Shown: positions 6,196 to 46,447 of the stretch, in pieces
How the letters are laid out: each line of letters begins with the position of its first letter
How positions within the stretch are numbered: the stretch's first letter is position 1
Origin: Planctomycetota bacterium
GTDB taxonomy: Bacteria; Planctomycetota; B15-G4
Direction of reading: 5' to 3'
Length of the DNA stretch: 64,000 nucleotides
Assembly (NCBI GenBank): GCA_029259715.1
Contig: JAJDEP010000012.1
Span: forward strand, 62,001-126,000
The notes under the pieces: generated by a model
The model's input: only the letters and a program-made list of their open reading frames with translations
What the model was told of the DNA's origin: nothing
The model's database searches: none
Program-made: the position numbers and the translations under genes

Positions 6196-6231
6196 ACATA
6201 GGAATCCCGGGATCTGACGTCGGTCCTATGT
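6196..6231. promoter_or_regulatory. Inverted repeat, candidate enhancer for NtrC-type regulator 1
   Basis: ACATAGGA (6196-6203) is repeated in inverted orientation as TCCTATGT (6224-6231), separated by 20 bp and each flanked outside by CG at the same distance. It lies about 55-90 bp upstream of the -24 element, where an activator of sigma-54 would bind. Assignment to regulator 1 is inference from position. Confidence 0.45.
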
Positions 6232-6247
6232 GGCGAGCGCAACGGAT

Positions 6248-6269
6248 CGCCCTGAAAGCGCTCAGGGCG
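6248..6269. promoter_or_regulatory. Perfect 8-bp dyad upstream of sigma-54 promoter 1
   Basis: CGCCCTGA-aagcgc-TCAGGGCG is a perfect inverted repeat ending 13 bp before the -24 element. It could be a second activator site, an IHF-independent spacer element, or a weak terminator for the regulator gene. There is no T-run after it. Confidence 0.4.
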
Positions 6270-6282
6270 GGGATTCGAAGAT

Positions 6283-6298
6283 TGGCACAGCCCTTGCT
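6283..6298 (+). promoter_or_regulatory. Sigma-54 (-24/-12) promoter of module A
   Basis: TGGCACAGCCCTTGCT matches the sigma-54 consensus TGGCACNNNNNTTGCW at every defined position. The GG (6284-6285) and GC (6296-6297) are 10 bp apart, as required. Transcription should begin near 6309, giving a leader of about 65 nt before the ATG at 6375. The leader contains an 11-bp tandem repeat (GCCCACCCGCC, from 6312). Confidence 0.88.
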
Positions 6299-6374
6299 GA
6301 CCGGATGGGTTGCCCACCCGCCGCCCACCCGCCGCCCACCGCGGCGCCCTCTCGTCAGCCCGGAGTTGCCCACG

Positions 6375-6956: not shown

Positions 6957-7360
6957 CCGGGGCAGCGAGAGCGATGCTGCTCTTCGCCTCCTGCGCCCTG
7001 GGGCTCGTCTGGTTGTCCAGCTGCGCACCGGAGGTCAACGGGAGCGACGGCCTCTCCGTCGTGTTCCACCTCGATCCCGACGTGCCGCGGGTCGGGCCGA
7101 CGACCCTCGAGGTGCGCTTGTACGACGGCGCGGGTCAGCCCGTCCGCGGCGGGACCCTGGTCGTCGAGGGCAACATGAGCCATGCGGGCATGCGGCCCAG
7201 CTTCGCCGACCTGGTCGAGTCCGCTGAACAGCCGGGGCTCTACCGGGGCGAGCTCGAATTCACCATGGGCGGGGACTGGTTCCTCCTGCTGGAAGCGCGT
7301 TGGCCTGACGGACGCCTCGTCGAGAGACAGCTCGACGTGCCCGGCGTCCGCGCGCCATGA
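6953..7360 (+). CDS. YtkA/FixH-like lipoprotein
   Basis: 135 residues from the GTG at 6953, which overlaps the preceding stop as GTGA. An ATG at 6974 is the alternative start. A signal peptide ends in the lipobox LSSC, so the mature protein is a periplasm-facing lipoprotein. The remainder is one immunoglobulin-like beta domain of about 100 residues of the YtkA/FixH type, with a Met/His cluster NMSHAGM that resembles the copper-binding loop of that family. It ends in an ATGA overlap with the polyferredoxin gene. FixH and YtkA-like proteins are associated with copper delivery or oxidase assembly. That role here is inferred. Confidence 0.75.
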   Translation: MTGAARAMLLFASCALGLVWLSSCAPEVNGSDGLSVVFHLDPDVPRVGPTTLEVRLYDGAGQPVRGGTLVVEGNMSHAGMRPSFADLVESAEQPGLYRGELEFTMGGDWFLLLEARWPDGRLVERQLDVPGVRAP

Positions 7361-8784: not shown

Positions 8785-8785
8785 G

Positions 8786-9370
8786 GTGAGGCTCGCATGG
8801 CATGGCCTGCTCGGGGTGTCGCTGCTGCTCGCGTGGGCCGGGCCGCTCGCCGGCACGCTGCACGCCCACGAGGGCCCGCCGTTCCCGATCCTGGTGGATG
8901 AGGTCGACGGGCCCTGGTCGATCTCCGTCTGGGCCGACCCGGACGTCGGCACGGGCACGTTCTGGATCCAGATCGAGGCCACTCCCGGAGTCGACCTGCC
9001 GGACGACACCCGAGCCAGCGTGCACGTCAGGCCTGCGGACGGACGACTCGACGAGACCACGTGGCCGGCCGAGCCCGAGGCGTGGGACCGCGGGCAACAG
9101 CACGTCGCCAAGGTCGAGTTCCCCACCCGCGAATTCTGGCAGGTGCGGATCGTGCTCGAGAGCGAGTCCGCGGCGCAGACGACCGAGCGCACCCTGCGCG
9201 TCGAGGTCACGCCCCCCGGATACGGCCCCCTCGACCTGTTGCTCTACCTGTGGCCATTCCTCGCGCTCGCCGCACTGTGGATCAAGGCGATCGGCAAGCG
9301 GCGCGCAGCGATCCGCGCTTGCGCCCCGGCCGGGCTCGAGTGCGGGTCCGAGCCCGGGTCCGATGCCTGA
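8786..9370 (+). CDS. Exported, C-terminally anchored periplasmic protein of module A
   Basis: 194 residues from a GTG at 8786, 1 bp after the previous stop. A signal peptide ends near AGTLHAHEG. The mature part is a beta-rich domain of about 140 residues (ISVWADPDVGTGTFW, then alternating strands). A transmembrane helix at about 150-170 (LLLYLWPFLALAALW) and a short basic tail with two Cys end the protein. The N-terminal HAHEG of the mature protein could bind a metal. No named family is recognised. Context suggests a partner of the polyferredoxin. The frame is open upstream through the polyferredoxin gene, but that part is a shadow. Confidence 0.75.
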   Translation: MRLAWHGLLGVSLLLAWAGPLAGTLHAHEGPPFPILVDEVDGPWSISVWADPDVGTGTFWIQIEATPGVDLPDDTRASVHVRPADGRLDETTWPAEPEAWDRGQQHVAKVEFPTREFWQVRIVLESESAAQTTERTLRVEVTPPGYGPLDLLLYLWPFLALAALWIKAIGKRRAAIRACAPAGLECGSEPGSDA

Positions 9371-9410
9371 CTCTCTCTGCTCCTGTGACTTCCCCTTGTG
9401 AGGCCCCTCC

Positions 9411-9614
9411 GTGGTGCTCAAGTCCCTGATCCTCGGCGTCTCGGTGGTGCTCATGGCCGTCGTCGCCCTCTTGTCCGTCGCCGGCATCCGCTGGGGCCTG
9501 GAGGCGCAGTGGCCTCCCCTGTCCGGCGGCCCTGTCGTGCTCGCCGTCTCCGGCCTCGCCGCCCTGATCTGCCTCTGGCGCCTGTGGGCGACGCGTCATG
9601 ATCACCTCCGCTGA
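9411..9614 (+). CDS. Small two-helix membrane protein
   Basis: 67 residues starting at GTG 9411 (a second GTG follows at 9414). Two hydrophobic helices (about 5-27 and 42-60) are joined by a short loop with WGLEAQWPPLSGG. The 3' end overlaps the start of the porin gene by 17 bp, which supports translation. No family is recognised. It could be a small subunit of the FixG-like complex. Confidence 0.6.
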   Translation: MVLKSLILGVSVVLMAVVALLSVAGIRWGLEAQWPPLSGGPVVLAVSGLAALICLWRLWATRHDHLR

Positions 9615-11010
9615 TCAGCGCGGTCTCCGCACCGGCCTGCTGTTGCTCGCCTCGGCCTGCGCCCTGGCGGCAGCCCCGGCCGCGCCGGACGACTCCGGAT
9701 GGGATTCGCGGGTGCCCCCACCCTTCCCGCTCATCGAGGCCGAGTCCAAGACGGAAGGGGAAGACACCGATGACGCCGGGCCCACAGTGCTCGGCGCGGG
9801 CTGGACCGTCGACGTGGGCGGCCAATTCCGCTACCGCCTCATGCACGAGAACAACAAGTCTCTCACCGGGGCAAGCCCGCGACGCAACGACTTCCACCTG
9901 TGGCGCACCCGCATCCACGGAGACTTCCGCAACGACAACGGCATGCGCGTCTTCGTCGAGGCGGTCGACGCACGCATCAACGGTGAAGAGCGCAGCCCTC
10001 TGCCCATCGATCGCAATGACTTCGACCTGCTCAACGCCTACGTCGAGTACGACGCCGGCGTGCCCGCGTTCCGCCTGGGACGCATGGAGTTGCAAGAGGG
10101 GGCCCAGCGCCTGGTGTCCCCGCTCGAGTGGGGCAACACCCGACGCACCTTCGAGGGCGGCATGGTGCGCCTCGACCACGCCGACGGCGGGCGCACCGAC
10201 CTGTTCGTGGCGCACCCGGTGATGGTGGACGTGCACGACTCCGACAAGCGCGACAAGGGGCGCTGGTTTTCGGGCCTGTATCACAGCGGGAAGTCCGAAG
10301 AGGGCCAGTCCAACTGGGACCTGTTCGCCCTCGCACTGAACGAAGTCGACGACGTCCTTGTGGCCGACGACGGCTCGCCCGGCGACATGGACCTCTACAC
10401 CGTGGGCGGCCGTTGGGCCGACAGGTGCGGTCCGTTCGACTACGAATTCTGGGGGGCGCGCCAGTTCGGCCACCGGGCCGGCGACATGATCAGGGCCCAT
10501 GCCTGGTCGGCGCGCTTCGGTTGGACCTTCGCGGACATCGCCGGGGCGCCACGGCTCGGTCTCGATGTCGACTCCGCCAGCGGTGACTCGAGGCCCGGCG
10601 ACGGAAAGGTCGAGACCTTCAACCAACTCTACCCGCTTGGCCATGCCTACTTCGGATTCCTCGACATGGTCGGGCGGCAGAACATCTTCGCCGTATCGCC
10701 CAACCTTACCGTGAAGCTGGACGAGCGCACGACCTTCCGTACAGCGTGGCACTCCTTCCGGCTCGCCGAGGCCGCCGATGCCCTCTACAACGCCGGTGGA
10801 GCCGCCCTCTTCGTCGATCCGACCGGCGCGGCTGGGCGTGAGTTGGGCAACGAACTCGACCTGACCCTGAAGCACAAGCCCACCTGGTGGGACGGGCGTT
10901 CGACCATCCTGCTGGGCTGGTCGAAGTTCTTCGCCGGCGAACGCATGGACGATCTGGGCGGCCGGGGCGACGCACGCCTGTTCTACCTGCAGGTGTTGCT
11001 GGACTTCTGA
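9598..11010 (+). CDS. Alginate-export-type outer-membrane porin
   Basis: 470 residues. A signal peptide of about 25 residues (GLLLLASACALAAAPAAP) is followed by a long beta-rich region with alternating aromatic residues and charged loops: FRYRLMHENN, the RNDFHLWRTRIHGDFR segment and YVEYDAGVPAFRLGRMELQEGAQR. This is the pattern of the alginate_exp (AlgE-like) family. The last residue is Phe (VLLDF), the usual beta-barrel C-terminus. Relatives form 18-stranded anion-selective barrels. In this setting it may pass anions such as nitrate or nitrite rather than alginate, since no alginate genes are present. That is inference from context. Confidence 0.82.
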   Translation: MITSADQRGLRTGLLLLASACALAAAPAAPDDSGWDSRVPPPFPLIEAESKTEGEDTDDAGPTVLGAGWTVDVGGQFRYRLMHENNKSLTGASPRRNDFHLWRTRIHGDFRNDNGMRVFVEAVDARINGEERSPLPIDRNDFDLLNAYVEYDAGVPAFRLGRMELQEGAQRLVSPLEWGNTRRTFEGGMVRLDHADGGRTDLFVAHPVMVDVHDSDKRDKGRWFSGLYHSGKSEEGQSNWDLFALALNEVDDVLVADDGSPGDMDLYTVGGRWADRCGPFDYEFWGARQFGHRAGDMIRAHAWSARFGWTFADIAGAPRLGLDVDSASGDSRPGDGKVETFNQLYPLGHAYFGFLDMVGRQNIFAVSPNLTVKLDERTTFRTAWHSFRLAEAADALYNAGGAALFVDPTGAAGRELGNELDLTLKHKPTWWDGRSTILLGWSKFFAGERMDDLGGRGDARLFYLQVLLDF

Positions 11011-16321: not shown

Positions 16322-17215
16322 ATGGGCAAGACGACGGGCAGGTGGACACTGGCGTTGGCCGCGGGCCTGCTGCTCGGCGGCACCGCCGCCGCCCAGGGCG
16401 CCAGCGACGAGGCCTACGAATACTTCGCGCGCAACTGTGTGAGCTGCCACACCATCGGCGGCGGCCCCCTCGCCGGCCCCGACCTGGCCGGCCTGCTCGA
16501 CCGCCGCGACCGCGACTGGCTGAGCGCCTTCCTGCTCGACCCGGCCGGCGTCATCGACAGCGGTGACGTCTATGCCCAGGCGCTGCTGCGCGACGCCCGG
16601 GGCGTCTACATGCCGACCCCGCCCGGCATCACGGCCGACCTCGCCGACAAGCTCCTCACCGTCATCGCGGTGGAAGACGGCCTCGACAAGAGCCGCTTCG
16701 CCGGCCTGCAGCTCTCCGACCGGCCGCTCACCCCCGTCGACATCGCCCTCGGACGCCAGCTCTTCAATGGCACGACCGCCTTCGCGAGCGGCTCGCCGGC
16801 CTGCTTCGCGTGCCACACCGTCGAAGGCGCCGCCGGCTTCGGGGGCGGACGGCTCGGCCTCGACCTGACCACCGTCTACGCGCGCATGGAGGGCCGCAAG
16901 GCGCTCGGCGCCTGGCTGGGCGCGCCGCCATCGCCGGTGATGGCGCCCCTGTTCCAGGACGCGCCCCTCGACGCCGACGAGATCCTGGCGTTGACGGCCT
17001 ACCTCAAGCACACGTCGGAGAGCGGCGTGGAGCAGGCGAGTTCGGGCGTGCTCGCCTTCCTGCTCACGGGACTCGGCCTCGCCGCCGTGCTGCTCGTGCT
17101 GTTCGACGTCGCCTGGAAGGACCGCTACCGCTCCACGCGGCGCACGCTCGTCGAGGGTCGACGCAGCCCGCGCCTCGCTTCCCGAGCGGTCGAAGGAATG
17201 GAGGGCACACCGTGA
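16322..17215 (+). CDS. Membrane-anchored diheme cytochrome c
   Basis: 297 residues from the ATG at 16322. A cleavable or anchoring signal peptide ends near TAAAQGAS. Two haem-binding motifs are present, CVSCH (39-43) and CFACH (161-165), each in a separate class I-like domain, with Met ligands likely downstream. A transmembrane helix near 247-270 ([17 protein letters not shown]) anchors the protein with a basic cytoplasmic tail. It is the first gene after the sigma-54 promoter and overlaps narG (GTGA). A leading cytochrome c is unusual for respiratory narGHJI. It fits either an electron acceptor for alternative complex III or a partner of the NarGHI-type enzyme, as in some nitrite-oxidiser clusters. 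Confidence 0.9.
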
Positions 17216-20200
17216 CCGATCCGCTCACCACCGACCGCAGCGTCGGCAACAACCCCGACATCCCCACGGGACCGGTCGGACCCGGCAACCCCTGGATCCA
17301 GGACAGCGTCGACCCCAAGACCCGCTCGTGGGAGGAGTTCTACCGCAACCGCTGGCAGCACGACAAAGTCGTGCGCAGCACCCACGGCGTCAACTGCACG
17401 GGCTCGTGCTCGTGGAACATCCACGTCAAGGACGGCATCGTCGCGTGGGAGATGCAGGCGCTGGACTACCCGCGCCTCGAGAGCGGCATCCCTGCCTACG
17501 AGCCGCGCGGGTGCCAGCGCGGCATCAGCTACTCGTGGTACCTCTACAGCCCGCTGCGGGTGAAGTACCCCTACGTGCGCGGCGCCCTGCTCGACCTGTG
17601 GCGCGAGGCGCGCAACGTGCACGACGACCCGGTCGACGCCTGGAAGTGGCTGCAGTCGGATCCCGAGAAGCGCGCGCGCTACCAACGCGCCCGCGGCAAG
17701 GGCGGCCTGCGCCGGTGCAGTTGGGACACCGCGCTCGAGATCATCTCCGCCTCGACGGTGCACACCGTCAAGGAGCACGGCCCCGACCGCGTGGCCGGCT
17801 TCTCGCCCATCCCCGCCATGTCGATGGTCAGCTACGCCGCCGGCTCGCGCATGTTGCAGCTGCTGGGCGGCGTGTCGCTCTCCTTCTACGACTGGTACTG
17901 CGACCTGCCCAATGCCTCTCCCGAGACCTGGGGTGAGCAGACCGACGTGAACGAGTCGGCCGATTGGTACCACTCCAAGTTCCTGGCCGTCATGGGCAGC
18001 AACCTGAACATGACGCGCACGCCCGACGTGCCCTTCGCCAGCCAGGCCCGCACCAACGGCACGAAGATGGTGGTGTTCTCGCCGGACTTCAACCAGGTGG
18101 CGAAGTACGCCGACGAGTGGATCGCGCTCAACGCCGGCCAGGACGGCGCGTGGTGGATGGCGGTGAACCACGTGATCCTGAAGGAGTTCCACCACGAGCA
18201 GCAGGAGCCGTTCTTCCTCGACTACGTGGCCCGGTTCACCGACTCGCCCTACCTGGTCGAGATCAGCCCCAAGGGCGGCGCCTACGAATCGGGCCGCATG
18301 CTGCGCGCCGGGCGCCTCACGACCTACGCCGACGAGCAGCACGGCGAGTGGAAGTTCCTGCAGTGGGACCGCAACGACGACCGCCCCAAGATGCCCATGG
18401 GCAGCTCGGGCCACCGCTGGCAGGACCAGAAGGGCCAGTGGAACATGAAGCCCGAGGACGGCAAGGACGGCAGCCCCATCGACGCCGAGCTGACCTTCCT
18501 CTCGAAGAACGACGAGGTCGTGCAGGTGCGCTTCGACGACTTCGCCGGCGGTGGCTCGACCCACCGCGGCGTGCCCGTGCGCACGCTGCAGACCGACGAC
18601 GGCCCCGTGAAGGTGGCCACGGTCTACGACCTGCTCATGGCCCAGTACGGCGTGCCCCGCGGGCTGCCGGGCGACTACCCCGAGAGCTACGACGACGACG
18701 CCGTCTACACGCCGGCCTGGGCCGAGCGCTACACAGGCATCGACCGGGCGACCATCACGCGCTTCGCCCGCGAGTGGGCCTCCACCGCCAAGCACACCGG
18801 TGGCAAGTGCACGGTCATCATCGGCGCCGGCATCAACCACTGGTACCACGCCAACCTGATGTACCGCGCCGCCATGCACGCGCTCATGTTCTGCGGGTGC
18901 GTGGGTACAAATGGTGGAGGGCTCGCCCACTACGTCGGCCAGGAAAAGCTGGCGCCCATGGAGTCGTGGTCGTCCATCGCCATGGCCAAGGACTGGTATC
19001 CGCCGTCACGCCTGCAGAACGCGCCGAGCTGGCACTACGTGCACACCGACCAGTGGCGCTACGAGCGCAGCTTCTGCGACTACCACACCGTCCCCGAGGA
19101 CCAGGCCGAGGGCAGCCTGGCCGAGGGCCACACGATAGACGCGAACGTGCGCGCGGTGCGCAACGGCTGGCTGCCCTTCTACCCGCAGTTCGACAAGAGC
19201 CCGCTGGAGGTCTGCCGCGACGCGCAGGCTGCCGGCGCCGACAGCAACGCCGAGATCGTCGACTACGTGCGGGACAAGCTCGCCAAGCGCGACCTGACCT
19301 TCTCCATCGAACGGCCCGACGCCGAGGAGAACTGGCCGCGGGTCTGGTTCATCTGGCGCGGCAATGCCCTCATGTCGTCGGCGAAGGGGCACGAGTACTT
19401 CCTCAAGCACTACCTGGGCACGCACGAGAACACGATCTCGCAGGACCTCGCCGAGGGTCACGTGAAAGAGGTCGAGTGGTTGGAGCACGCGCCCACCGGG
19501 AAGATGGACCTCGTCGTCGACCTCAACTTCCGCATGGACACGTCGGCGCTCTACTCCGACATCATCCTGCCCGCGGCCACCTGGTACGAGAAGGCCGACC
19601 TCAACAGCACCGACATGCACAGCTTCATCCACCCGCTGGCCAAGGCCGTGCCGCCGTGCTGGGAGAGCCGCTCCGACTGGGACATCTTCAAGGCCATCGC
19701 CAAGGGTGTGAGCGACCTGGCGCCCAAGCACCTGCCGGGCAAGCACAAGGACGTGATCACGCTCCCGCTGGCCCACGACTCGCCGGCAGAGATCGCGCAG
19801 CCCGAGATCAAGGACTGGGCGCGAGGCGAGTGCGAGGCCATCCCGGGCAAGACCATGCCGGGCCTGAAGGTCATCGAGCGCGACTACGAGAACCTCCACA
19901 ACCAGTTCATCTCCTACGGACCGCTGGTGAGGGAGGCCGGCCTCGGCGCGCATGGCACCCACTACGCCGTCGACGACGTCTACGACGACGCGCTCGAGCA
20001 CGGCCCGACGCAGTCGTGGGGCGGCGGCAAGTACCCGTCGCTGAAGCAGGACACCGAGGTCTGCGACGTGGTCCTCAACTTCGCCACCGTCACCAACGGC
20101 GAGCTGGCCTGGCGTTCGTACAAGGACATGGAGACCAAGACCGGGCTCGAGCTGGCCGACCTCGCCGAGAAAAGCCGCTCGGTGCGCACCAACTACCAGG

Positions 20201-20907
20201 ACCTGCAGGCCCGACCGCGACGCCTGCTCAACAGCCCCATGTGGTCGGGGCTCACCGAGAACGGCCGGGCCTACGCGCCCTTCACCTACAACCGCGAGAA
20301 GCTCGTGCCCTGGCGCACGCTCACCGGTCGGCAGCACTTCTACCTCGACCATGAGGGGTACATCGCGTTCGGCGAGCACCTGCCCACCTACAAGCCCAAG
20401 CCGCGGCCGGACGCCTACGCCGACCTGGTCTTCAGCGAGGGGATAGGCAAGACGCTGCAGCTCAACTACCTCACGCCCCACGGCAAGTGGCACATCCACT
20501 CGACCTACGGCGACAACCACCGCATGTCGACGCTGTCACGGGGCTGCGAACCCTTCTGGATCAACGACAAGGACGCGGCCTCCATCGACATCGAGGACAA
20601 CGACTACGTCGAGGTGCACAACGACCACGGCGTGGTGGTCACGCGGGCGGCCGTCTCGGCGCGCATCCCGCGCGGCATCTGCATCATCTACCACTCGCCC
20701 GAGCGCACGCTCTCGGTGCCCAAGAGCCCGCTGCGCAACAAGCGCCGCGCCGGCGGCCACAACAGCCTCACGCGCACCCGGCTCAAGCCGAACCTGATGG
20801 TCGGCGGCTACGGCCAGTTCACCTACCACTTCAACTACTGGGGCCCGACGGGCTGTAACCGGGACACGCACATCCTCGTGCGTAAGTGCCCCGAGCTCAT
20901 CTGGTGA
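17212..20907 (+). CDS. narG: Respiratory nitrate reductase alpha subunit (NarG type)
   Basis: 1231 residues, close to the 1247 of E. coli NarG, from the GTG at 17212 overlapping the cytochrome stop. There is no twin-arginine signal, so the active site faces the cytoplasm. The FS0 cluster ligands are H58, C62, C66 and C101 (HGVNCTGSC ... GC). The molybdenum ligand is Asp231 in [13 protein letters not shown], followed by the NarG signature [15 protein letters not shown]. It binds Mo-bis-MGD and reduces nitrate to nitrite with electrons from NarH. Homologous cytoplasm-facing enzymes also work as nitrite oxidoreductases, and motif reading alone does not decide the direction. The open frame upstream of 17212 is a shadow of the cytochrome gene. 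Confidence 0.96.
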
Positions 20908-26066: not shown

Positions 26067-29000
26067 ATGGACATCGAGCCAGGAACCCCGAACCGAGCCG
26101 ACATGACGACGCCGTCCGAGCAACATTGGTTCAAGGACCCCGACGCCCACCGCAGCGCCGTCGGCAGCCGTGCCGACGACCGCGCGGCGAGCCGCGAAGG
26201 ACACGCCGACGCGCGCGACACGCAGTTCGACCGGCGTTCCTTCCTGCGCCTGGTGGGTTTCAGCGTCGCCGCCGCGGGCGTGTCCGGCTGCTCCCCTGCG
26301 CCACCGCAGACGGTCATGGCCCTGTTCGAGCCGCCCGTCGAGATCGTCCCCGGGCGCGCCTACTGGATCGCCACCACGAGCTGGGCCGACGGCTCGGGCA
26401 GCGGCGTGCTGGTGCGTTGCCGTGACGGACGCCCGATCAAGGTGGAGGGCAACCCGAGCCACCCGGTCAACCAGGGCGGCCTCACCGCGGCGTGCCAGGC
26501 CTCCTTGCTCGCCCTCTACGACAGCCACCGCTTCGACGGCCCCCGTCGCGACGGCGCGGCTGCCACCTGGGACGAGGTCGACACGGCCGTGCGCGCGAAG
26601 CTCGATGAGGTCCGCAGCGCGGGCGGAACCGTGCGGCTGCTCACCTCGACGCTGACCGGGCCGTCGACCCTCGAACAGATCGACGCCCTGCTCGCCAGCG
26701 TGCCCGACGGACGGCACGTCATGTACGACGCCCTCTCGTGCTCGGCGCTGCTCGACGCCCAGCAGGCACTGCGCGGGGTGCGGGTCCTGCCGCGCTACGA
26801 CTTCTCGAGAGCCAAGGTGCTCGCGGCCTTCGACGCCGACGTGCTCGGCACCTGGATCTCCCCCGCCGGCTTCGCCGCCGACCGCCAGCAAGCCCGCGAC
26901 GTGCACGCCGAGCCGCCGCGCATGAGCCGGCACTGGCAGCTCGAGGCGCGGCTCTCGCTCACCGGCACCCGGGCCGACCGGCGCGTGCGCCTCGCCCCCT
27001 GGGAGACGACCGCCGCCCTGGCCGAGCTCGGCAGCGAGCTGGCCGGTTTCGCCGGCGTCACCGCGCCGGGCCCGCGTCCCGACGCGTCGGCCCTGCCGCA
27101 GGCCACGCGCACGGCCTTGCACGAACTCGCGCAGGAACTGTGGGCCCAGCGTACCGAGAGCCTCGTCGTGTGTGGCACCAACGCTCGCGACGCGCAGCTG
27201 CTCACCGCGTGGATCAACGCGCAGCTCGGCAGCGAAGGCACGACCTTCCACCTCGACACACCGTCGCTGCAACGTCAGGGCGACGACGCCGCCCTGCAAC
27301 GCCTGCGCGACGAATTGCTGACAGGCGCCGTCGACCTCCTGATCGTGGCCGGCGCGAATCCCGCCTACGATCTGCCGGACTTCGCCGAGGCCCTCGGCCA
27401 GGCCGGCACGCTGGTCAGCCTGGCGTCACTGCCAGACGAGACCTCGGCCCTCGCGACCATCGTCTGCCCTGAGCCCCACGAGCTCGAGCGCTGGGACGAC
27501 GCCGAACCGATCGCCGGGCTCTACAGCACCACCCAGCCGACGGTCCCCGCGCTGCGGGACACACGCACCCTGCGCGCCAGCCTGGCCCGCTGGCGCGGTG
27601 ACGCGCGCGACGACCGTGAGTTGCTCGTCGATCACTGGCGACGCGAGCTCGACAGCCGACGCCCGTCGCCGCGCACCGGCTTCGATGCCTGGTTCCATGC
27701 CGTGCTCGAGCGGGGCTGGACCGAGCTCCCGTCCGCGCAGCCCTTTCGGCCCGCGGCGTTCAGGCCGGCGCCGGTGGCCGCGGCGCTCACGCGCATCGCC
27801 GCCAACGCCGGGGCGCCCGCCGACGGCGCACTGGGCCTGGTGCTGCACCCGAAGGTCGGTCTGCTCGACGGACGTGGCGCCCACAACCCCTGGCTGCAGG
27901 AGCTGCCCGACCCGGTCACCAAGGTCGTGTGGGACAACCACGTCGACCTCTCGCCGGCGACGGCCGAGCGCCTGGGCCTGCGCACCGGCGACATCGTCAC
28001 CGTCAGCGCGACCGATGACGCACCCTCGGCAGACTTGACCCTTCCCGTGCTCGTCCAGCCCGGCCAGGACGATCGAGTGGCGGCCATCGCCCTGGGTTAC
28101 GGCCGCGCAGGGACGGACCGCTTCACCGCGGTGGGCCCGGAGTGGCTGCAGGGTCGCCGCACGGTGGAGCCCGGCGGGACGATCGGCGCCAACGTTGCCC
28201 CCTGGCTGCGCTGGCGTGCGGGCGCCCTCGATTACAGCGGCCGCACGGTGCGCCTCACCGCCACCGGTGGCCGGCACGAGCTGGCCATCACCCAGGACCA
28301 CCACAACCTCTCGGTGCCCGCCCACCTCGCACCGCCCGGCGGCGAGGTCCGCGACGCCGTGCGCCTGGTGACCTTCCCTCAGCTGCAGGCCGACCCCGAG
28401 CACGTCCTGGGCGGCGGCCACACGCCCGTCGGCGAACTCTGGGACGACGACCACATCCCCGCCGGCCACCACTGGGGCATGGCCATCGACCTCTCCGCCT
28501 GCACCGGCTGCTCGGCCTGCGTGGTGGGTTGCCAGGCCGAGAACAACATCCCCGTGGTGGGCCGCGACGAGGTGCGCCGCCACCGCGAGATGAGCTGGCT
28601 GCGCATCGACCGCTACTACGCCGACCAACCCGACGGCGGCGTCGACGTCGTGCACCAGCCGATGATGTGTCAGCACTGCGCCCACGCCCCCTGCGAGACG
28701 GTGTGCCCGGTGCTCGCGACCATGCACAGCAGCGAGGGCCTCAACACCCAGGTCTACAACCGCTGCGTGGGCACGCGCTACTGCGCCAACAACTGCCCCT
28801 ACAAGACGCGCCGCTTCAACTGGTTCGACTACGCCCACGACGACCAGCTGCTGAACATGGTGCTCAACCCGGAGGTCACCATCCGCAGCCGGGGCGTGAT
28901 GGAGAAGTGCTCGCTGTGCGTGCAGCGCATCCAGGGCGCCAAGGCCCTGGCCGGACGCGAGGGCCGCGAGCTCGCCGACGGCGACATCCAGACCGCCTGC

Positions 29001-29178
29001 CAGCAGAGCTGCCCGACCCGGGCCATCACCTTCGGCGACCTCAACGACCCGAACAGCGCCTTGTCGCGCCGCATCGCGACGGGTCGGTCCTACCGTGCGC
29101 TCGAGGAGCTCAACGTCCAGCCCGGCGTGCACTACCTGGCGGACGTCCGCAACGACGCCGGAAGCAAGGGAGGCGGGC

Positions 29179-29186
<8 letters not shown>
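26067..29186 (+). CDS. actB: Alternative complex III subunit B, molybdopterin-like/iron-sulfur fusion
   Basis: 1039 residues. An N-terminal twin-arginine signal (FDRRSFLRLVGF, near residues 53-64) leads to a lipobox-like GVSGC. ActB is therefore exported folded and probably lipid-anchored. Residues of about 90-760 form the molybdopterin-oxidoreductase-like domain, in which this family carries no Mo. The last 250 residues are a NrfC/PsrB-like ferredoxin domain with CTGCSACVVGC, CQHCAHAPCETVC, CVGTRYCANNC and CSLC...CQQSC, for four clusters. An alternative start is ATG 26103 (MTTPSEQHWF), which has family-like N-terminal sequence. It lies 9 bp after actA and overlaps the next gene by 8 bp. Confidence 0.93.
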
Positions 29187-37541: not shown

Positions 37542-39212
37542 CTACATCTTCAGGCCCACGCCGAGCCGCCGCAGGTCCTCGCGGGCCGTATCGTCGCCGG
37601 CCTTGATGGCCATGCGATACCAGCGCACCGCTTCCATCTCGTCGCGTCGCACGCCGGTGCCATTCTCGTAGAGCCGGCCGATCGAGCGCATGGCCGGCGC
37701 GTGGTCGAGCTCGACGGCCCGCTTGTACCAGCGCAACGCCTCGCCGAAGTCGATGGCGACGCCCAGGCCTTGCTCGTAGCTGAGCCCCACGTTGCAAAGG
37801 GCCTGGAGGTCGCCCGCATCGGCCGCCCGCCGGAACCACGAGAGGGCCTCGATGTCGTTCTTGGCGACGCCGAGCCCCTGCGAGTAGCAGAAGCCCAGGT
37901 CGTTCTGGGCCTCGACGTAACCCTGCTCGGCGGCCAGGCGATACCAATGCACCGCCTCGACCCCGTTGGGTGGGACGCCCTCGCCCACCTGGTGCCACCA
38001 GCCCAGGGCCCGCTGGGCCTTCGCCAGACCTGCATCCGCCGCCCGGCGCATGAGGCCGTGGGCCGCGGACATGTCGTAGGGGACGCCGCGCCCCTCGGCG
38101 TGCATCTCGGCCAGGTTGAACAATCCCCAGCCGTCGCCCTGGTCGGCCGACCGCCGGAACCACCGCGCCGCCTCGGACGAGTCTGCCTGCACCGCCCAAC
38201 CGTTCTCGTAGAAGATGCCGACGTCGTTCTGTGCGACGGCAAAGCCCTGGTCGGCCGCCCGGCGGTACCAGCGCAGGGCCTCGCCCAGGTCTTCACGCAC
38301 ACCGCGGCCGGTCTGGAAGATGTAGCCGACCTCGCGGACGCTCTCGAGGTCCCCCAGGTCGGCGCCCCGGCGGTACCACTTCAGCGCTTCGTCGTGGTCG
38401 ATGCGCCCGAGGTCTCCGTCACGGTGGATGTTGCCGGCGTAACGCGCCCCCTCGCCGTCTCCGAGCTCGGCGGCGCGGACGTACCAGCGTCGGGCCTCGG
38501 ACAGGCCCGAATCGGGCGAGGTCGGCGTCCAGCCGTGCTCGTGGTACCAGCCCACCCACACGGCGGCGGCCCCGTGTCCCGCCTCGGCCGCCTCGAGGAA
38601 CGGAGTGTACGCCTCGCGCCGCTGGGCCCCCGACCCGTCGTCGGCGTTGTAGAGATCGAGGGCAGCCTGGAAGCGTCCCGCCTCCCAGCTCACCGGTTCG
38701 TACGACCCGTAGACCGCGCCGAGTAGTTCGTTCAAGTCCGAGCTGCCCAGGTCACCCGTGTCGCCGCCGCTCTCCGCGCTGCCCTCGCCGCCCGTGCCTC
38801 CGCCACCCGACGACCCACCCCCCGAGGAGCCGCCGCCGGACGCCCCGCCCCCGAGCTCGTCGGCGCGGCGCGGGGCGGCGCAGTCGATGGTCACGATGTG
38901 CCCGGGCGCCGGGCGCCCCGAGGCGCTCCCCGACAGCGAGGCCGCCACCCGCTCGACGCTCACCTCGGTGATGGTCCAGGTGCCGGCGATGGGGATCACG
39001 CCCTCGCCGGGCACCTCGAAGCCGAGGGTCAGCGCGTCGCCCACGTTGGGGAAGAGGTCGCCGTCGAGCGCGATGGTGATGTCGGTGCCATCCACCGAAC
39101 GCACGCTTCCCGCGAGGTCTTCGGCCGGCGCGGCGTAAACGGGAGCGGCAAGGACGGGGCCCGCCGACAAGAGCAGGGCGGCGAGAGCAAAGACGAGCAG
39201 GCGCTGATTCAT
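37542..39212 (-). CDS. Secreted Sel1-repeat protein
   Basis: 556 residues. A signal peptide ends near VLAAPVYAAPAED. A beta-rich domain (about 30-115) is followed by a Gly/Ser linker (GGGASGGGSSGGGSSGGGG). From about residue 200 to the end there are nine or ten Sel1-like repeats of 36 residues with the pattern A..WYRRAAD.G...A...G..Y..G.GV, which stack into a superhelix used for protein contacts. The start codon overlaps the stop of the giant upstream gene (ATGA), so the two are translationally coupled and probably act together at the envelope. The gene converges on the sulfatase gene, with a 40-bp gap. Confidence 0.9.
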   Translation of the reverse strand: MNQRLLVFALAALLLSAGPVLAAPVYAAPAEDLAGSVRSVDGTDITIALDGDLFPNVGDALTLGFEVPGEGVIPIAGTWTITEVSVERVAASLSGSASGRPAPGHIVTIDCAAPRRADELGGGASGGGSSGGGSSGGGGTGGEGSAESGGDTGDLGSSDLNELLGAVYGSYEPVSWEAGRFQAALDLYNADDGSGAQRREAYTPFLEAAEAGHGAAAVWVGWYHEHGWTPTSPDSGLSEARRWYVRAAELGDGEGARYAGNIHRDGDLGRIDHDEALKWYRRGADLGDLESVREVGYIFQTGRGVREDLGEALRWYRRAADQGFAVAQNDVGIFYENGWAVQADSSEAARWFRRSADQGDGWGLFNLAEMHAEGRGVPYDMSAAHGLMRRAADAGLAKAQRALGWWHQVGEGVPPNGVEAVHWYRLAAEQGYVEAQNDLGFCYSQGLGVAKNDIEALSWFRRAADAGDLQALCNVGLSYEQGLGVAIDFGEALRWYKRAVELDHAPAMRSIGRLYENGTGVRRDEMEAVRWYRMAIKAGDDTAREDLRRLGVGLKM

Positions 39213-42200
39213 GGTGATGGGTTTCCCTCGGCACGCGTTCCACCGAGCAGCAACGGTGACGAATGGTCGAACGGATTGAAGCGATGCAGCAGGTCAGCGT
39301 CGATGCGGTTGGGCGGCAACCACGGCGACGCGCACTCGGCCGCCGCGTCGATGGTCCGGCGCAGCAGAGGGTCGTCCCAATCGAGACGTTCGAGGACACC
39401 CACCAGCCCATCGAACACCGGCGCGAGCAGCGCCCGCGTGTCCGTTCGCCCTCGCACCCGGGCGGCGACTCGCGGGCCCCACATGTAGTAGGCGTCCACG
39501 AGCCGCGATCCGGCGGGGCTCTCCCGCAACACCTCGTCGCGGAAGCGGCGCAGGACCGTCAACTGCGGCGACTCGGCCCGCCCGTAGACCGCCGTCGCGA
39601 CGAAGCAATCCATCGCCTCGAGGACCTGCACGAAGAACTCGAAGGCCTGCGCCTTGGATTGCTCCGACCAACCCCGCTCCATGGGGCCGGCATGCACCTC
39701 GACCGACTCGTTCTCATTCTCCTTCTCCATCTTCTGGTGCATGCGCCCATCAGGATTGCGGAAGAAGAACACGGAGCTGGCCGGGTCGTTGAGTTCTTCC
39801 GCCTTGTCCGGGAAGGCCTGCTTGAGCGACGCCATGCTCGTGCCCTGGAACGTCACCTCCAGCAGCAGGCTGCCCGCCACCGCCACGGGCGCCCCCGACT
39901 CCGGATTGCTGCCGTTGAGGCGGATGGGGATGGCGATCTTGCTGCCGGGCGTGAACATGTCCGGCGGATAGATGGCCGTGGCCTCGCCCTCGATGCGGAG
40001 CAAGAGCGGTGAGGTCTCCGAGCGCTCCCACTTGACCGCCTGGTAGCCGAGTGCGCGGATCGCCGCCGACGGCTTGGTGCCCTCCGGCAACTCGTCCGGC
40101 AGGTCGTCTTCGTTGGGCAGCTCGGGCAACTGCAAGATGCCCCCGACGTAGAACGGCGCATGGGTCGGCGTGGTCTCGACGACCGGCGGCGGCGTCGGCG
40201 TCGGCGTCGGTGTCGGCGCGGGCGGGTCGGGGGCCGGCGGGTCCGGCTGCCACACGGGCTCGGGATCGGGCTCCCCCACCGGCGCGGGCGGCGTGACCGC
40301 CGGCGGCGGGTCGTCCACCTCCGGCGGGATGGCCGCGACCGTCGGTTCAAAGGCGCCGTAGAGCACCACCTCCACGACGCTGCCGGGCTCAACCTCCACG
40401 CTGGCGGCCGGCTGCTGGTCCTGCACGCGATAGGCGGCCTCGGCCCACGGCGCGGGATCGCCGCCGACGATGGTGGCCACGAGCCCCACGCCCTCGATGG
40501 CCGCGCGCGCATCGGACGCCGTCTGGAAGCTCACCAGCGGTACGCGGACGAGGGACGGCGCCGCGCCGAAGAGCGCGACGGTCACGCGGCTGTCGGGGTC
40601 GACCTCCGCGCCGGCCGCCGGGTCCTGCCATTGGACCGTGAAGGCCTGGCTCTCGTCGGCGGCCGGGTCGCCTCCGACCACGTCGAACTCGAGGCCGGCG
40701 CCCCCGAGGCGCTCGCGCACGCCCGAGAGGCTCTGGCCCGCCAGGTCGGGCACGCTGGTCACGGCGACGTAGTCGCCGTAGACCTTCAGCTCGAACGCGG
40801 CGCCGGCCTCCACCTCCGTCTCCGGCGCCGGCCACTGGTCCTGCACACGGAAGGCCAGGTCGGGCTCGGGCGCAGGGTCGCCGCCGACCGTGGACACGGC
40901 GAGCCCTTTCATCAGCGCGTCCTGCTTCGCGCGTCCCATACGTCGACCGCGGTAGTCGTCGAGGGGGTTGGGCGGCTGCGGGCCGTAGCGACCGGCGCAC
41001 TGCAACACCGGTCCGCCGATCTTCGACATGACATACTCGCCCAGCTTGCAGTGGTTCACCGAGTCGAGGTCGTCGCGCAACATCCAGACGTATTCGACCG
41101 ATGTCCAACCCGCGGAGGCGTCCGGCGGCCGGTTGGCGGTGATCACACCCCCGGGAACCGTTCCGACCATCACGCCCCACTCGGTGTAACGCAGGTTGGC
41201 GCCGATGGTCGCGTTGAGGGGCGGCTCGGCCACGCCGATCCACTCGCGGATGTAGCCCGAGATGTCGGGGTCGTTGGGGTTGATGGACGCCGGATCGAGA
41301 GTGCGGCCACCCGAGCCGTCGCCGTTGCCCGTGCCGTCGCCCCCCGCACCGGCCGTGTCACCACCGGCGCCGCCGCCCGCGCCCCCGCTGCCGTCACCGC
41401 CGGGTCCATCGGTGGGCGAGGGCCCGTCGTAGATGCCCGGCACGGCGCTGTAGATGCCGTAGCCGTACATCGGTTCGCCGATGAACTTCAGGTAGACGGG
41501 CACCACGAAGATGGTGTCGGGGTTGCGCAGGTGCCAGGCGAGCTCGAGCTTGGGCACACCCGTCTCGCCGTGGTCGGGGCGTCCCATCTGCATGCGGCCC
41601 GACGCGGTCACCGTCTGGAAGTTGCCCGATTCGGCCGCCGACGTGCCGTAGTAGTCGAGCCCGCCCGGCACGTCGAGGTTCTTGAAGCGCGAGAGCCAGG
41701 TGCCCTTGCTGGCCGTGGAGCGGGACGGGGGCCGGGTGCCCGACGGCATCATCGAATTGACGCCGGCGAGGAAGGCCACGCCGCCAGTCTCGTCCACGAT
41801 GCTCAGGTCGTAGGTGATCTGGCCCATCTCCTCGATGTCGAAGCCGGTGGTCAGCTCGAGTTCGGCGGGGAACTCCAGCGACAGGTTGCTCGCGGCGGTG
41901 CGGCGCTCGCCCGCCACCTCGACGAAGTCGCCTTGCGCGTCCTTCTCGTACTCGAGGTCGTTCCACATGGCGCGGCCGGTCCACGAAACGCTGGTGCCCT
42001 GGACCTGGGGCGCATCCGCGGTGAGCCGTGCGTTGAGCACGCCGCTCAACTCGACGGACGCGTTGCTCACCGACTCGGTCACGAAGCCGTTGAAGTGCAG
42101 TCGCGCCTCTTTCAACTCGACGGTGTGGCCGCTGTCCACCCAGGGGTAGGGCTCCTCGGGACCACCGAGCCCGAACAGGGCCGGCGGCGTCCAATGGTCG

Positions 42201-45200
42201 CGGGTCACGAAGCGGTAGATGCCCGACTCGGTGTCCTCGACGCTGAACTTCAGTGCGTACAGCCCCGGCGCACCCTCCCCCGCGGCGCTGGGGTTCGGTT
42301 CGGTGGGCGGGTTCTCGTCGTCGGGGGCGGGGAGGGCCAGGGGCGCACCGTAGGCCACGGTCTCGTCGGCATCGTCGAGCAACGCCCAGTCCCAATCCTG
42401 CCCCAGGGGGCGTTCGGGCGTGACGAACAACCACACCTCGTCGTAGGTGAACAGAGGCTCGGCGTCGAAGTCGACCCCGGTGTGTGCGTCGGTGGCGGTC
42501 AGCCCGCTCACACCGCTCTTCTCGGGCGCCACGGCGAAGGCCCCCTCCATGCTCTCGGGCTCCTCGAATTCGGCCGACTTCGAGAGGGTCCCGATGTCGA
42601 TGTCTTCGACGAAGCCGACTTCCTTGTCGTTGCTCGCGAAGACGGTGACCTTCTTGACCCGCAGCTCGACCCGGTCGGTCTCGCCCACTTCGGGCTCCTC
42701 GGGGATGTCGGCCCACTCCACCTCGATGCGATAGGGCCCCGGGAAGCCGATCTCCGGATCATCGTTGGCGACCACCGAGACGAGGAAGTCGATGATGACG
42801 TCCTTGTCGCCCGCGATGCCTGCCGCGGCGCCGCCTACGCCGTCGCCGCCCGCCCCGGCAGCACCCGCGCCAACAGCACCGGCCGAGGCCTCGCGCACCC
42901 GCGGACGCACGTGGATGCGCGGCGCCGGATCGGTGGGTGCGCGCGCCTTGATCGCCGCGTGGATCGCATTGGCCAGCAGCGGGTTGGGCGCCACCTTGCG
43001 CGCGTCCTCCATGGCCACGGCGGCCTGCCGTGACAGGTACTTCATGAACTTCTCCCACTGCATGGCGATCTCGAGCTTCATGCTCGACTCGAGCGAGCCG
43101 GGGGAGAGCAGCTTGCCCTTGGAATCGAACTCGGGGTCCGTGCCGCGGACGAGCTGCCACCCCAGGAAGAAGTCGCCGACCATGCGGCCGGCCAGGCTGT
43201 TGAGGAAGCGCTCGCGTTCGGCCACGCGGTCGGGCGGCGCCACGGTGTCGATCAACACCTCGTTCTCGGCGCCGATGCCGCGGTTGAAGAAGTCGCCCGT
43301 GCCGGTGATCCACATGTCCACGTAGGGACGGAAGAACTCGAGCAACAAACGCTGCGTGCCGTTGTGCCCCTCGAGCACCACCAGGTCGGCCATGGTGTAG
43401 CCGGCCATGCCCTTCGTCGCGAGGAACGCCGCGAACTTCGGCCAGTAGTGCAGGAACATGCTGTTGCGCTGGGCCTCGAAGCGGAAACGCAGGTTCTCGT
43501 CGCGGATCTCGTCGAGGGCCCGCGGGAGATGCTCGTCCCAGTCGGGGCCGCCCCCCAGCAGGCCGGCCTCGCGGGCGAAGGCCAGCTGCTCCGTCGACTC
43601 GACCAGCTCGAGATCCCAGGCCTCGTCGTCGCTGTAGGGGCCGGTGGCGAAGAACACCTGCGGGCCGCCGTCTTTCCGTTCCAGCACGTTGCCGTCGGGG
43701 CCCTTGCGGGTGTACGGGATGACGCGGATGTCGACGTTGTCGAGCAAGCTCACGCGCTTGCTGCCCTGGTCGCGACGGAACTGGTTCTCGGCGCCGAGGT
43801 AACCCTGGTAGATGTTGTCCTTGGTGTCGTCTTTCAGCGGATCGAGCAGCAGCTTGCCGGCGATGCGCACGGAGGTGTTGGCGATGTTCACCGCGATGAA
43901 CGCCTGACCGACGCCCGGGATGAACATGGCCGAGCCCATCATCACCGCGCCCTCGGGGCGTCCGTTGGCCACGAGGTCGTACAGCGCGTAGCCGGGCGCG
44001 ACGTAGGGGAAGTTCATGACGAACTCGCGGGCCGCCACCCAACCGATCGCCTTGTAGTCGTTCGGGTTGTCGATGGCCGCTTCGAGGATCAGCAGCGCCG
44101 AGTCGAGGTTGCCCGAACTGAGCACTCTCGACATGAGCGCCTTGCCGCTGAAGGCGGGCTTGCCAAACTCGATCTGAAGTGCGGGCAGCTTGAAGTCCGC
44201 GTTGGGCATGAGCAGATGGATCTTGCCCCTCAACCCGAGGGTGCCGAGCACCTCCGCGCCGACGCCGCCCAGGCGACCGGCCATGCCCTCCATGACCTTG
44301 CCGGCGACGACCTCCTGCGTGTAGCGGCCGGCCTTGTACTCGTCGTACACGGACTTCGCGTAGGTCTTGGTGTTCTCGAAGCGCGCCACGACGCCGTTGC
44401 GCACCTCGAACCACACCGCCTCGCGGAAGGTCTTCTCGAGGCCGATGCGCGGGTCGAGGGCGTACTTGGCCCGGGCGGCGTCGAGGACGGCGCGCTCGAG
44501 TTCGGCCCGCTGCCGCGGGTCGGTCACCTTCTCGAGCAGCCGGTCGACGATGTCCTTGCGGCGCGGCGCGTTGGGGTCGTCGGCCCCCACGAGCTGACGC
44601 ACGTGCTGGTCCGACAACAGGTCGTGCACGCCGTGGTAGAGCTGCAGCCACGCGGTGCGGCGCCAGATCTCGGGGTTCGCGTCGGGGTACTGCTGCTTGA
44701 TGCGCGCCCACTCGGGATCGGTGATTCCGCCCGTCACGACTTTGAGCGGATCGGTCACCGTGAGGATCATGTTCTCGATCATGATCTCGCGGCCCACGAG
44801 GTCCCAACGGGACTGCGCGCCTTGGATGTCGATGGTCTTGCGGTACTTGCCGTCCTGCGGGTGGTCGTAGTAACCCGGCGGCCGCTCGGGCAGATATTCC
44901 TTCCAGATGTCCTCGGCCGTGTAAGGCTTGCCGTCGCCCTTGGCCTCGCCCTTGTGCTTGAGCCGGAACTTCGCGGCGGCGTCGAACGCCATGCGGATCT
45001 TCTCGTGACTCAGCCCTTCGCCGCCCCCCGTCGAGCGGATGTGCTTGTAGATCTCGTCGATGTACTTGCGGCAGAGCTCGCGGTTCCCCCGCCCGTATTC
45101 GACGTCGTAGTCGAAGGCGACGATGCGCTTGTTCGGGTCGGAGTTGTGCACCGACGTGCGCTTCACACCGGTGCCCTCGGCGCCGCTGCGCAGCAGGTAC

Positions 45201-46447
45201 TTGGGCCGGTTGTGCGGGTGGTGCTCGTACATGATCCAGTTGTCGTAGGCGCCGTCGAACGAGAAGCGCTCGGCCATCTCGGGACGATTCGGCAGGACCT
45301 TGCCGCGCGGGTCGGCGTCGGTGCGCGCGGTCGCCCGGCCGTTCTTGTCGAGCCCCACCTCGGTCCACGGGCTGAGCCGCGCCTCGGCCTCGTAGTCGGC
45401 GCGCACCTTCTCGATCTCACCCTGCAGGCGATCGGCCCCGGCCTGATCGCCCTTGCCCCGCAGCACCTGCTGCTTGGTCATCAGCTCGGCCAGCTTGTTG
45501 TCGAACGCTTCGACGTTGCGGCCCCAGTCGTCCAACGAGTCCCAGCCGCGCCCCTCGGCCTGGCTCTTGAGCTGTCCCTCCGAGCGATAAGCCTCGGGGT
45601 TGAGCCGCTTCTCTCGCACGACGCGCCGGGCTTCGGACTCGTGCGACGACATGCGCGACTGGGCGCGCCAGTCGGGGAAGAAGTCCCAACCATTCATGCT
45701 CTCGATGCCGAGGCGCATGGGGTCCATGCCGTGGAGTCGGGTGAACTCCGCGTCGAACATCTTGATCACCTCTTCGACGGTGATCCCCAGCTTCTCGGCC
45801 AGGTCGCGCGGGAACACGAACACGGTCTGGTCGATATCGCTGGCGATGCCGCTGCCCTTGTTGCCCGAGTCGAGCATGCCAATCTTGACCGCGCCGTCGG
45901 GATCGATGGACTTGAGCTTCTCGCGCACCGCTTCCATGGCGTCGCGGCTCATCTGTCGCCGCGCCTCGGCCAGGATCTGCTTCATGTTGTCGGCGAGCCC
46001 GACCTCCTTGATCATGTGCTCGATCTGTTCGAACGAGTACTGCTCGAAGACCTTCTTGCAGGCGTCGACCTCTTCCTTGGAACGGGCGGCCCGGGCCTCG
46101 GCGCTGTCCCCGGCCTGCGTCTCGGGCGCGGAGATCTTCTCGACCTCCGCCTCCACGGCGGCCTTCATGTCCGCGGGCTTGAGCCCCCGCAGGTCGCCGC
46201 CCTCGACGGCGATGCGCTCGAGTCGCCAGGTCGGGACCTTGATGCGCTGATCGTCGTCGTCGTCCGCCGCCGCGATCTGGGGCGACGGCGCGGGCGCCGG
46301 CACGGGCGCCGCGGCGAGCGCCGCAGCGACCCCGGAGGGCGCAAGGAACAACACCGACAGGCCGATCAGCAACCCCAGGGGCACCGCCGCCATGAGCCCG
46401 CTCCGAACCATCCGCGCGTTTCGCGGGGTCTCGACACTCTCAGACAT
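39209..46447 (-). CDS. Giant exported protein with PASTA repeats and CFI-box C-terminus
   Basis: 2412 residues. An N-terminal transmembrane or signal segment lies at about 18-45. Charged, helical sequence follows to about 1200 with no recognised family, including a nucleotidyltransferase-like string SGNKGSGIASDIDQ at 194-207. Beta-sandwich-like sequence (about 1260-1750) is broken by Gly-rich linkers. About three PASTA-like repeats occupy roughly 1845-2035 (SVPDLAGQSLSGVRERLGGA is the clearest). A Pro/Thr linker PTPTPTPTPPP follows. Near residue 2281 a CFVATAVYG...LTVLRRFRDEVL...SPAGSRLVDAYY block is the CFI-box-CTERM signature. GAGGAGAG lies about 10 bp before the ATG. Likely a cell-surface protein; function unknown. 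Confidence 0.85.
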   Translation of the reverse strand: MSESVETPRNARMVRSGLMAAVPLGLLIGLSVLFLAPSGVAAALAAAPVPAPAPSPQIAAADDDDDQRIKVPTWRLERIAVEGGDLRGLKPADMKAAVEAEVEKISAPETQAGDSAEARAARSKEEVDACKKVFEQYSFEQIEHMIKEVGLADNMKQILAEARRQMSRDAMEAVREKLKSIDPDGAVKIGMLDSGNKGSGIASDIDQTVFVFPRDLAEKLGITVEEVIKMFDAEFTRLHGMDPMRLGIESMNGWDFFPDWRAQSRMSSHESEARRVVREKRLNPEAYRSEGQLKSQAEGRGWDSLDDWGRNVEAFDNKLAELMTKQQVLRGKGDQAGADRLQGEIEKVRADYEAEARLSPWTEVGLDKNGRATARTDADPRGKVLPNRPEMAERFSFDGAYDNWIMYEHHPHNRPKYLLRSGAEGTGVKRTSVHNSDPNKRIVAFDYDVEYGRGNRELCRKYIDEIYKHIRSTGGGEGLSHEKIRMAFDAAAKFRLKHKGEAKGDGKPYTAEDIWKEYLPERPPGYYDHPQDGKYRKTIDIQGAQSRWDLVGREIMIENMILTVTDPLKVVTGGITDPEWARIKQQYPDANPEIWRRTAWLQLYHGVHDLLSDQHVRQLVGADDPNAPRRKDIVDRLLEKVTDPRQRAELERAVLDAARAKYALDPRIGLEKTFREAVWFEVRNGVVARFENTKTYAKSVYDEYKAGRYTQEVVAGKVMEGMAGRLGGVGAEVLGTLGLRGKIHLLMPNADFKLPALQIEFGKPAFSGKALMSRVLSSGNLDSALLILEAAIDNPNDYKAIGWVAAREFVMNFPYVAPGYALYDLVANGRPEGAVMMGSAMFIPGVGQAFIAVNIANTSVRIAGKLLLDPLKDDTKDNIYQGYLGAENQFRRDQGSKRVSLLDNVDIRVIPYTRKGPDGNVLERKDGGPQVFFATGPYSDDEAWDLELVESTEQLAFAREAGLLGGGPDWDEHLPRALDEIRDENLRFRFEAQRNSMFLHYWPKFAAFLATKGMAGYTMADLVVLEGHNGTQRLLLEFFRPYVDMWITGTGDFFNRGIGAENEVLIDTVAPPDRVAERERFLNSLAGRMVGDFFLGWQLVRGTDPEFDSKGKLLSPGSLESSMKLEIAMQWEKFMKYLSRQAAVAMEDARKVAPNPLLANAIHAAIKARAPTDPAPRIHVRPRVREASAGAVGAGAAGAGGDGVGGAAAGIAGDKDVIIDFLVSVVANDDPEIGFPGPYRIEVEWADIPEEPEVGETDRVELRVKKVTVFASNDKEVGFVEDIDIGTLSKSAEFEEPESMEGAFAVAPEKSGVSGLTATDAHTGVDFDAEPLFTYDEVWLFVTPERPLGQDWDWALLDDADETVAYGAPLALPAPDDENPPTEPNPSAAGEGAPGLYALKFSVEDTESGIYRFVTRDHWTPPALFGLGGPEEPYPWVDSGHTVELKEARLHFNGFVTESVSNASVELSGVLNARLTADAPQVQGTSVSWTGRAMWNDLEYEKDAQGDFVEVAGERRTAASNLSLEFPAELELTTGFDIEEMGQITYDLSIVDETGGVAFLAGVNSMMPSGTRPPSRSTASKGTWLSRFKNLDVPGGLDYYGTSAAESGNFQTVTASGRMQMGRPDHGETGVPKLELAWHLRNPDTIFVVPVYLKFIGEPMYGYGIYSAVPGIYDGPSPTDGPGGDGSGGAGGGAGGDTAGAGGDGTGNGDGSGGRTLDPASINPNDPDISGYIREWIGVAEPPLNATIGANLRYTEWGVMVGTVPGGVITANRPPDASAGWTSVEYVWMLRDDLDSVNHCKLGEYVMSKIGGPVLQCAGRYGPQPPNPLDDYRGRRMGRAKQDALMKGLAVSTVGGDPAPEPDLAFRVQDQWPAPETEVEAGAAFELKVYGDYVAVTSVPDLAGQSLSGVRERLGGAGLEFDVVGGDPAADESQAFTVQWQDPAAGAEVDPDSRVTVALFGAAPSLVRVPLVSFQTASDARAAIEGVGLVATIVGGDPAPWAEAAYRVQDQQPAASVEVEPGSVVEVVLYGAFEPTVAAIPPEVDDPPPAVTPPAPVGEPDPEPVWQPDPPAPDPPAPTPTPTPTPPPVVETTPTHAPFYVGGILQLPELPNEDDLPDELPEGTKPSAAIRALGYQAVKWERSETSPLLLRIEGEATAIYPPDMFTPGSKIAIPIRLNGSNPESGAPVAVAGSLLLEVTFQGTSMASLKQAFPDKAEELNDPASSVFFFRNPDGRMHQKMEKENENESVEVHAGPMERGWSEQSKAQAFEFFVQVLEAMDCFVATAVYGRAESPQLTVLRRFRDEVLRESPAGSRLVDAYYMWGPRVAARVRGRTDTRALLAPVFDGLVGVLERLDWDDPLLRRTIDAAAECASPWLPPNRIDADLLHRFNPFDHSSPLLLGGTRAEGNPSP

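Follow-up and report, generated by a model that had tools for sequence, protein, structure and literature searches.

A giant planctomycete PASTA/CFI-box protein with an enzyme-like N-terminal region and an overlapping Sel1-repeat gene

In a 64,000-nucleotide stretch of a Planctomycetota genome (hereafter the window), we found that the gene for a giant exported protein overlaps, stop codon on start codon, the gene for a secreted Sel1-repeat protein, and that this pairing recurs elsewhere. Because distant bacteria keep the two genes adjacent or fused, the proteins probably cooperate in the cell envelope. Our tentative proposal, which we place a little short of an even chance, is that the pair forms a two-part envelope machine, with a wall-tethered, enzyme-like giant and a dedicated Sel1 adaptor or regulator. 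Both open reading frames lie where an earlier note on this DNA had placed them, and the stop/start overlap that it described reads as ATGA at the junction:

39209–46447, minus strand: giant exported protein, 2412 aa (open frame; full-length homologues in other genomes)
37542–39212, minus strand: secreted Sel1-repeat protein, 556 aa (Sel1, 235.8 bits, nine stretches)
39209–39212, minus strand: ATGA stop/start overlap of the giant and Sel1 genes (sequence)

The junction sequence is ...CCATCACCATGAATCAG, in which the giant's TGA stop shares bases with the ATG of the Sel1 gene, and GAGGGAA is located upstream of the Sel1 start. Homologues of the giant in other genomes are likewise full-length open frames, of 1.4–2.9 kaa. 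The gene pair is a real observation, and it is more than chance because every Sel1 match in the 4.2-Mb window genome falls in the partner gene alone and the genome's sole CFI-box is that of the giant. PASTA matches at E ≤ 1 number three in this genome, and the two above the cut-off are both in the giant. Consensus scans for promoters and terminators at both ends of the pair found nothing. On the giant's strand, a UDP-sugar dehydrogenase and a MATE transporter lie upstream, and the opposite flank holds a sulfatase-family protein; these flanking genes are ordinary, with no evident link to the pair. Elsewhere in the window, molybdopterin oxidoreductase and 4Fe-4S proteins (16810–20904 and 26067–29183) are grouped in what may be a respiratory cluster of the alternative complex III-like type.

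The giant combines recognizable C-terminal modules with a long N-terminal region of a new family:

46340–46396, minus strand: hydrophobic export or anchor segment, residues 18–36 (Kyte-Doolittle peak 2.44; equivalent N-terminal segment in most homologues)
42878–46267, minus strand: N-core, residues 61–1190, new family, predicted mostly helical with moderate confidence (13-member alignment; AF2 pLDDT 70, pTM 0.52; no Pfam or NCBIfam match)
45113–46099, minus strand: enzyme-like core, residues 117–445 (15-member alignment; AF2 pLDDT 82.6, pTM 0.79)
43889–43945, minus strand: conserved Gly/Pro-rich hydrophobic segment, residues 835–853 (hydropathy 1.64; peak of at least 1.4 at the equivalent site in most homologues)
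40958–42880, minus strand: middle region, residues 1190–1830, no known domain (residues 1521–1830 partly common to G117 and L022)
40769–40957, minus strand: degenerate PASTA-like repeat, residues 1831–1893 (PknB_PASTA model alignment; below the Pfam cut-off)
40577–40756, minus strand: PASTA repeat, residues 1898–1957 (38.3 bits, above cut-off)
40361–40549, minus strand: PASTA repeat, residues 1967–2029 (above cut-off together with the neighbouring repeat)
40118–40360, minus strand: proline-rich linker, residues 2030–2110 (35% Pro)
39608–40021, minus strand: pre-CFI domain, residues 2143–2280 (homologous to G309 and G735, E ~1e-9)
39410–39607, minus strand: CFI-box, residues 2281–2346 (NF041770, 60.7 bits, cut-off 40; also in G309 and G735)

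The PASTA assignment of the earlier note holds in a profile search, where PF03793 reaches 54 bits in two stretches against a Pfam cut-off of 23.2; a third, degenerate repeat precedes these two, as indicated by the PknB_PASTA alignment, which spans residues 1831–2029. Peptidoglycan binding is not universal among PASTA repeats. The same note had the protein end in a CFI-box: the box is there, well above its cut-off, yet it is not the extreme C-terminus, as 66 further residues follow residue 2346. Its description of the N-terminal half as unrecognized agrees with our searches, in which that half had no Pfam, NCBIfam or PDB sequence match and residues 1–1800 as a whole matched nothing in Pfam and NCBIfam. 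For the middle region we assume a beta-rich fold. Part of it, residues 1521–1830 (window 40958–41887), is common to G117 (E 1.2e-9), carries DEWL-/REWI-like and LGEY-like motifs and is perhaps a small unrecognized planctomycete domain. Export of both members of the pair was judged by eye and hydropathy, and from its N-terminal segment we infer that the giant is exported through a signal or anchor.

The Sel1 partner, like the giant, begins with a hydrophobic segment, and by eye its N-terminal MNQRLLVFALAALLLSAGPVLAAPVYA resembles a Sec signal. It has two parts:

38853–39140, minus strand: N-terminal domain, residues 25–120 (phmmer E 8.7e-6 against L022 and 7e-4 against L021; BLASTP 7e-5 against L021)
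37593–38570, minus strand: nine Sel1 repeats (Sel1 profile PF08238)

The tandem repeats score above the PF08238 cut-off. Outside them, the N-terminal domain is common to this partner and that of L022, a Gemmatimonadota MAG, with a weaker phmmer match to L021; a single BLASTP comparison of the window and L022 partners gave just 0.046.

That the giant has a dedicated Sel1 partner, as had been suggested, is borne out by the recurrence of the pairing: a Sel1 gene adjoins the giant in three genomes, spanning two sub-branches of the family, and is fused to it in a fourth. The outcome that would have overturned the note's reading, a failed PASTA profile search together with no conserved pairing, is the opposite of what we see. 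In G309, a distant planctomycete, a secreted protein with a PDZ domain and four Sel1 repeats (94 bits) begins with a signal peptide, and its gene starts 1 nt past the stop of a PASTA/CFI homologue. In L022, the gene that overlaps the giant's end encodes a secreted Sel1 protein (55 bits); its GTG start is uncertain. In Ca. Scalindua (L024), a tail of Sel1, TPR and PDZ domains is fused to the homologue itself, its Sel1 match (30.3 bits, E 5.6e-7) falling just below the 30.7 cut-off. Apart from these partners, the G309 genome contains no Sel1 gene, and that of L022 (G392) contains one.

One reading of these data, which we consider very improbable, is that the pairing is merely an inherited neighbourhood with no functional link. 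The window protein groups with the L022 homologue in the N-core tree (support 99/98), so the pairings in these two closest relatives may be one event, and most other homologues have no Sel1 gene beside them. However, the G309 N-core belongs to a sub-branch different from the window's, closest to G317, and there the pairing is present as well; it is fused in L024; and chance adjacency is improbable in genomes with just one or two Sel1 genes. The pairing is thus recurrent, not universal: in G735, G054, G117 and others, no Sel1 gene adjoins the giant.

Two loci were considered as further cases of pairing and rejected. In G117, the N-core gene shares an ATGA overlap (L040, 4892–4895) with the gene for a secreted protein of 320 aa, which matches neither Sel1 nor any other family. 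In G735, the neighbours of the PASTA/CFI homologue are secreted vWA-like proteins rather than Sel1 proteins: two mutually similar ones, one of them weakly vWA-like (L052, 351–3062, minus strand, and 3394–5499, plus strand), together with an ABC ATPase. We take these neighbours to resemble PpkA-type vWA proteins.

The N-terminal half of the giant is not unique; judged from sequence, it belongs to a sparse exported family that spans Planctomycetota and Gemmatimonadota and keeps certain charged residues invariant. A tblastn search with residues 61–1078 gave no match among 38 relatives, whereas across 392 Planctomycetota genomes it returned two close homologues (38–42% identity) and several distant ones. 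Profile searches place the N-core in 11 of the 392 (the window's genome included), in 3 of 298 genomes from the phylum to which the Gemmatimonadota MAG belongs and in 2 of 75 from the class of Candidatus Scalindua. The family is patchy, as it is missing from all 13 further genomes in the window's class; no homologue was found in plasmids, phages or viral contigs. The window protein's closest relative is L022 (MAG OFTM291), though it comes from another phylum, a grouping that suggests either inter-phylum transfer or a misbinned MAG.

The modules attached to the N-core vary. PASTA, CFI-box and Sel1 are optional, and several members have none of them. PASTA repeats occur also in L022, G317, G309 and G735 (in the last through homology to the window's PASTA stretch), and G309 and G735 also have both the pre-CFI domain and the CFI-box. 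Alternative tails include TPRs in G137 and vWA plus TPR in G533. Two proteins from the Gemmatimonadota phylum, L051 (G533; 2268–10040, plus strand) and L050 (G514), have an extra domain N-terminal to the N-core, in which the motif DNRSGHYQPSNA / DNSSGHYHPSNA is common to both.

Within the N-core, the enzyme-like core (residues 117–445) has nine positions (R163, D204, D206, P258, D259, Y287, K416, Y417 and R420) that stay invariant throughout an alignment of 15 members, 17–52% identical to the window protein. In close members, the motif runs DSGNxxSGIxSDxDQT...PDWR...KYxLR. These invariant residues suggest an active site. A different account of the giant, possible and on the unlikely side, makes it a structural adhesin or envelope scaffold whose N-core is a non-catalytic helical domain, with the Sel1 protein as an assembly factor; the large size, the mostly helical prediction for the N-core, the PASTA and CFI modules and the lack of a match to any recognized catalytic family all fit this account. 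However, that nine positions, most of them R, D, K or Y, stay unchanged at ~20% identity fits an active site better than a scaffold.

If the core is an enzyme, a nucleotidyltransferase-like fold is a weak lead, drawn from motif and predicted strand order. The AF2 core model runs helix, strand, short helix, strand starting at the DxD, helix, strand, which is the nucleotidyltransferase layout. The DxD and a third carboxylate (D204, D206 and D259) are invariant in all 15 members, and D259 would be the third ligand. The site of the hG[GS] motif before the DxD strand reads DSGN, NxG or NFS, and a strict GS is absent. The core alignment matched nothing in Pfam or among PDB sequences, and none of its 15 members had a Pfam nucleotidyltransferase hit. 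Foldseek searches of the 329-residue core against PDB and viral structures gave only matches with E > 0.05, and the 1,130-residue N-core model retrieved only unrelated helical proteins, again with E > 0.05. Profile–profile comparison with PF01909 proteins from related genomes set SDxD on SDxD, weakly, with a score that shuffled columns also reached in 1 of 60 and in 6 of 200 trials. An exported nucleotidyltransferase would also be unusual, because NTPs are scarce outside the cytoplasm. We regard as doubtful the fuller reading, that the N-core founds a new family of exported nucleotidyltransferase-like enzymes, thinly scattered over Planctomycetota and Gemmatimonadota and acting on the envelope from outside the cytoplasm under PASTA tethering and the control of a co-translated Sel1 adaptor.

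In the two-part machine that we favour, the giant would be exported by its N-terminal signal or anchor and held to peptidoglycan, or fragments of it, by the C-terminal PASTA repeats beside the proline-rich tether. The N-terminal ~1,100 residues would form an enzyme-like domain, with the invariant R, DxD, D, Y, K, Y and R as the predicted active site; our best guess is that the core adopts a transfer fold of the nucleotidyltransferase type, with an envelope polymer or protein as the substrate that it modifies. From the overlapping frame would come the Sel1 protein, to leave the cytoplasm by its own signal peptide and serve as the giant's dedicated solenoid adaptor or regulator, much as periplasmic Sel1 proteins work with other wall enzymes. 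The CFI-box is treated as a conserved tail. We infer surface or envelope location and peptidoglycan binding from the domains, and catalysis and complex formation are likewise inferred. Precedents exist for the parts: PknB PASTA domains bind muropeptides (PMC3145798), PA3978, a Sel1 protein in the periplasm, is a direct inhibitor of the lytic transglycosylase MltF (PMC10746161) and a survey classed both PASTA and Sel1 as peptidoglycan-associating domains (PMC7159879).

The same arrangement could also describe an antibacterial effector delivered at the surface, with the Gly/Pro hydrophobic segment crossing a membrane and the Sel1 protein protecting the producer as an immunity or chaperone partner. 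A patchy family, a conserved hydrophobic segment inside the N-core and a small gene overlapping the downstream end of a large exported one are all in keeping with such a system, but we think it improbable: in Ca. Scalindua and G137 the giant itself carries fused Sel1 or TPR domains, an uncommon arrangement for an immunity protein, Pfam and NCBIfam gave no match to a toxin or secretion family, and the enzyme-like domain is N-terminal rather than a swapped C-terminal tip.

Seen as a wall-tethered enzyme-like protein with a Sel1 partner, the giant invites comparison with several known systems. Like the PASTA-bearing Stk1/PknB Ser/Thr kinases, it has tandem PASTA repeats predicted to be extracytoplasmic, and these align to the kinase model NF033483; unlike them, it has no kinase domain, carries an unrelated exported N-core and continues past PASTA into a CFI-box. 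Identity as such a kinase was rejected, since the 42.9-bit match covers the PASTA part only and is far under the 450-bit cut-off. The partner resembles the periplasmic Sel1 proteins (PA3978, which works with MltF in Pseudomonas aeruginosa, and AlgK, ExoR and MotX) as a putatively exported Sel1 solenoid that would work with an envelope protein, and it weakly matches the MotX, ExoR and AlgK models. It differs in overlapping a giant PASTA gene and in its extra N-terminal domain, and all equivalog scores are under the cut-off.

With the nucleotidyltransferase (pol-beta-like) superfamily, for example PF01909, the core has in common the predicted order of elements, an SDxD strand and a later conserved Asp, but it has no strict Gly-Ser motif before the DxD and no significant profile or fold match, and it appears to be exported rather than cytosolic. 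The literal DxDxT string recalls motif I of HAD phosphatases, a reading that we disfavour from the AF2 model: in the HAD layout the DxD ends a hydrophobic strand, whereas in the giant it starts one, with the hydrophobic residues after it. If the core does transfer nucleotidyl or phosphoryl groups outside the cytoplasm, the chemistry would be unusual for that compartment. More broadly, the giant connects a large uncharacterized exported domain family, with its catalytic-looking residues, to likely cell-wall-binding modules and a dedicated Sel1 partner, and it does so in bacteria whose walls are poorly understood.

Finally, the giant joins the CFI-box-CTERM proteins (NF041770) through the CFVATAVYG box near its C-terminus, which scores above the curated cut-off. 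Among the papers searched, none used the term CFI-box. Here, unlike in those proteins, 66 residues follow the box, and it is combined with PASTA repeats, a pre-CFI domain and the N-core. The conserved pairing with Sel1 provides a defined, testable context for this curated domain.
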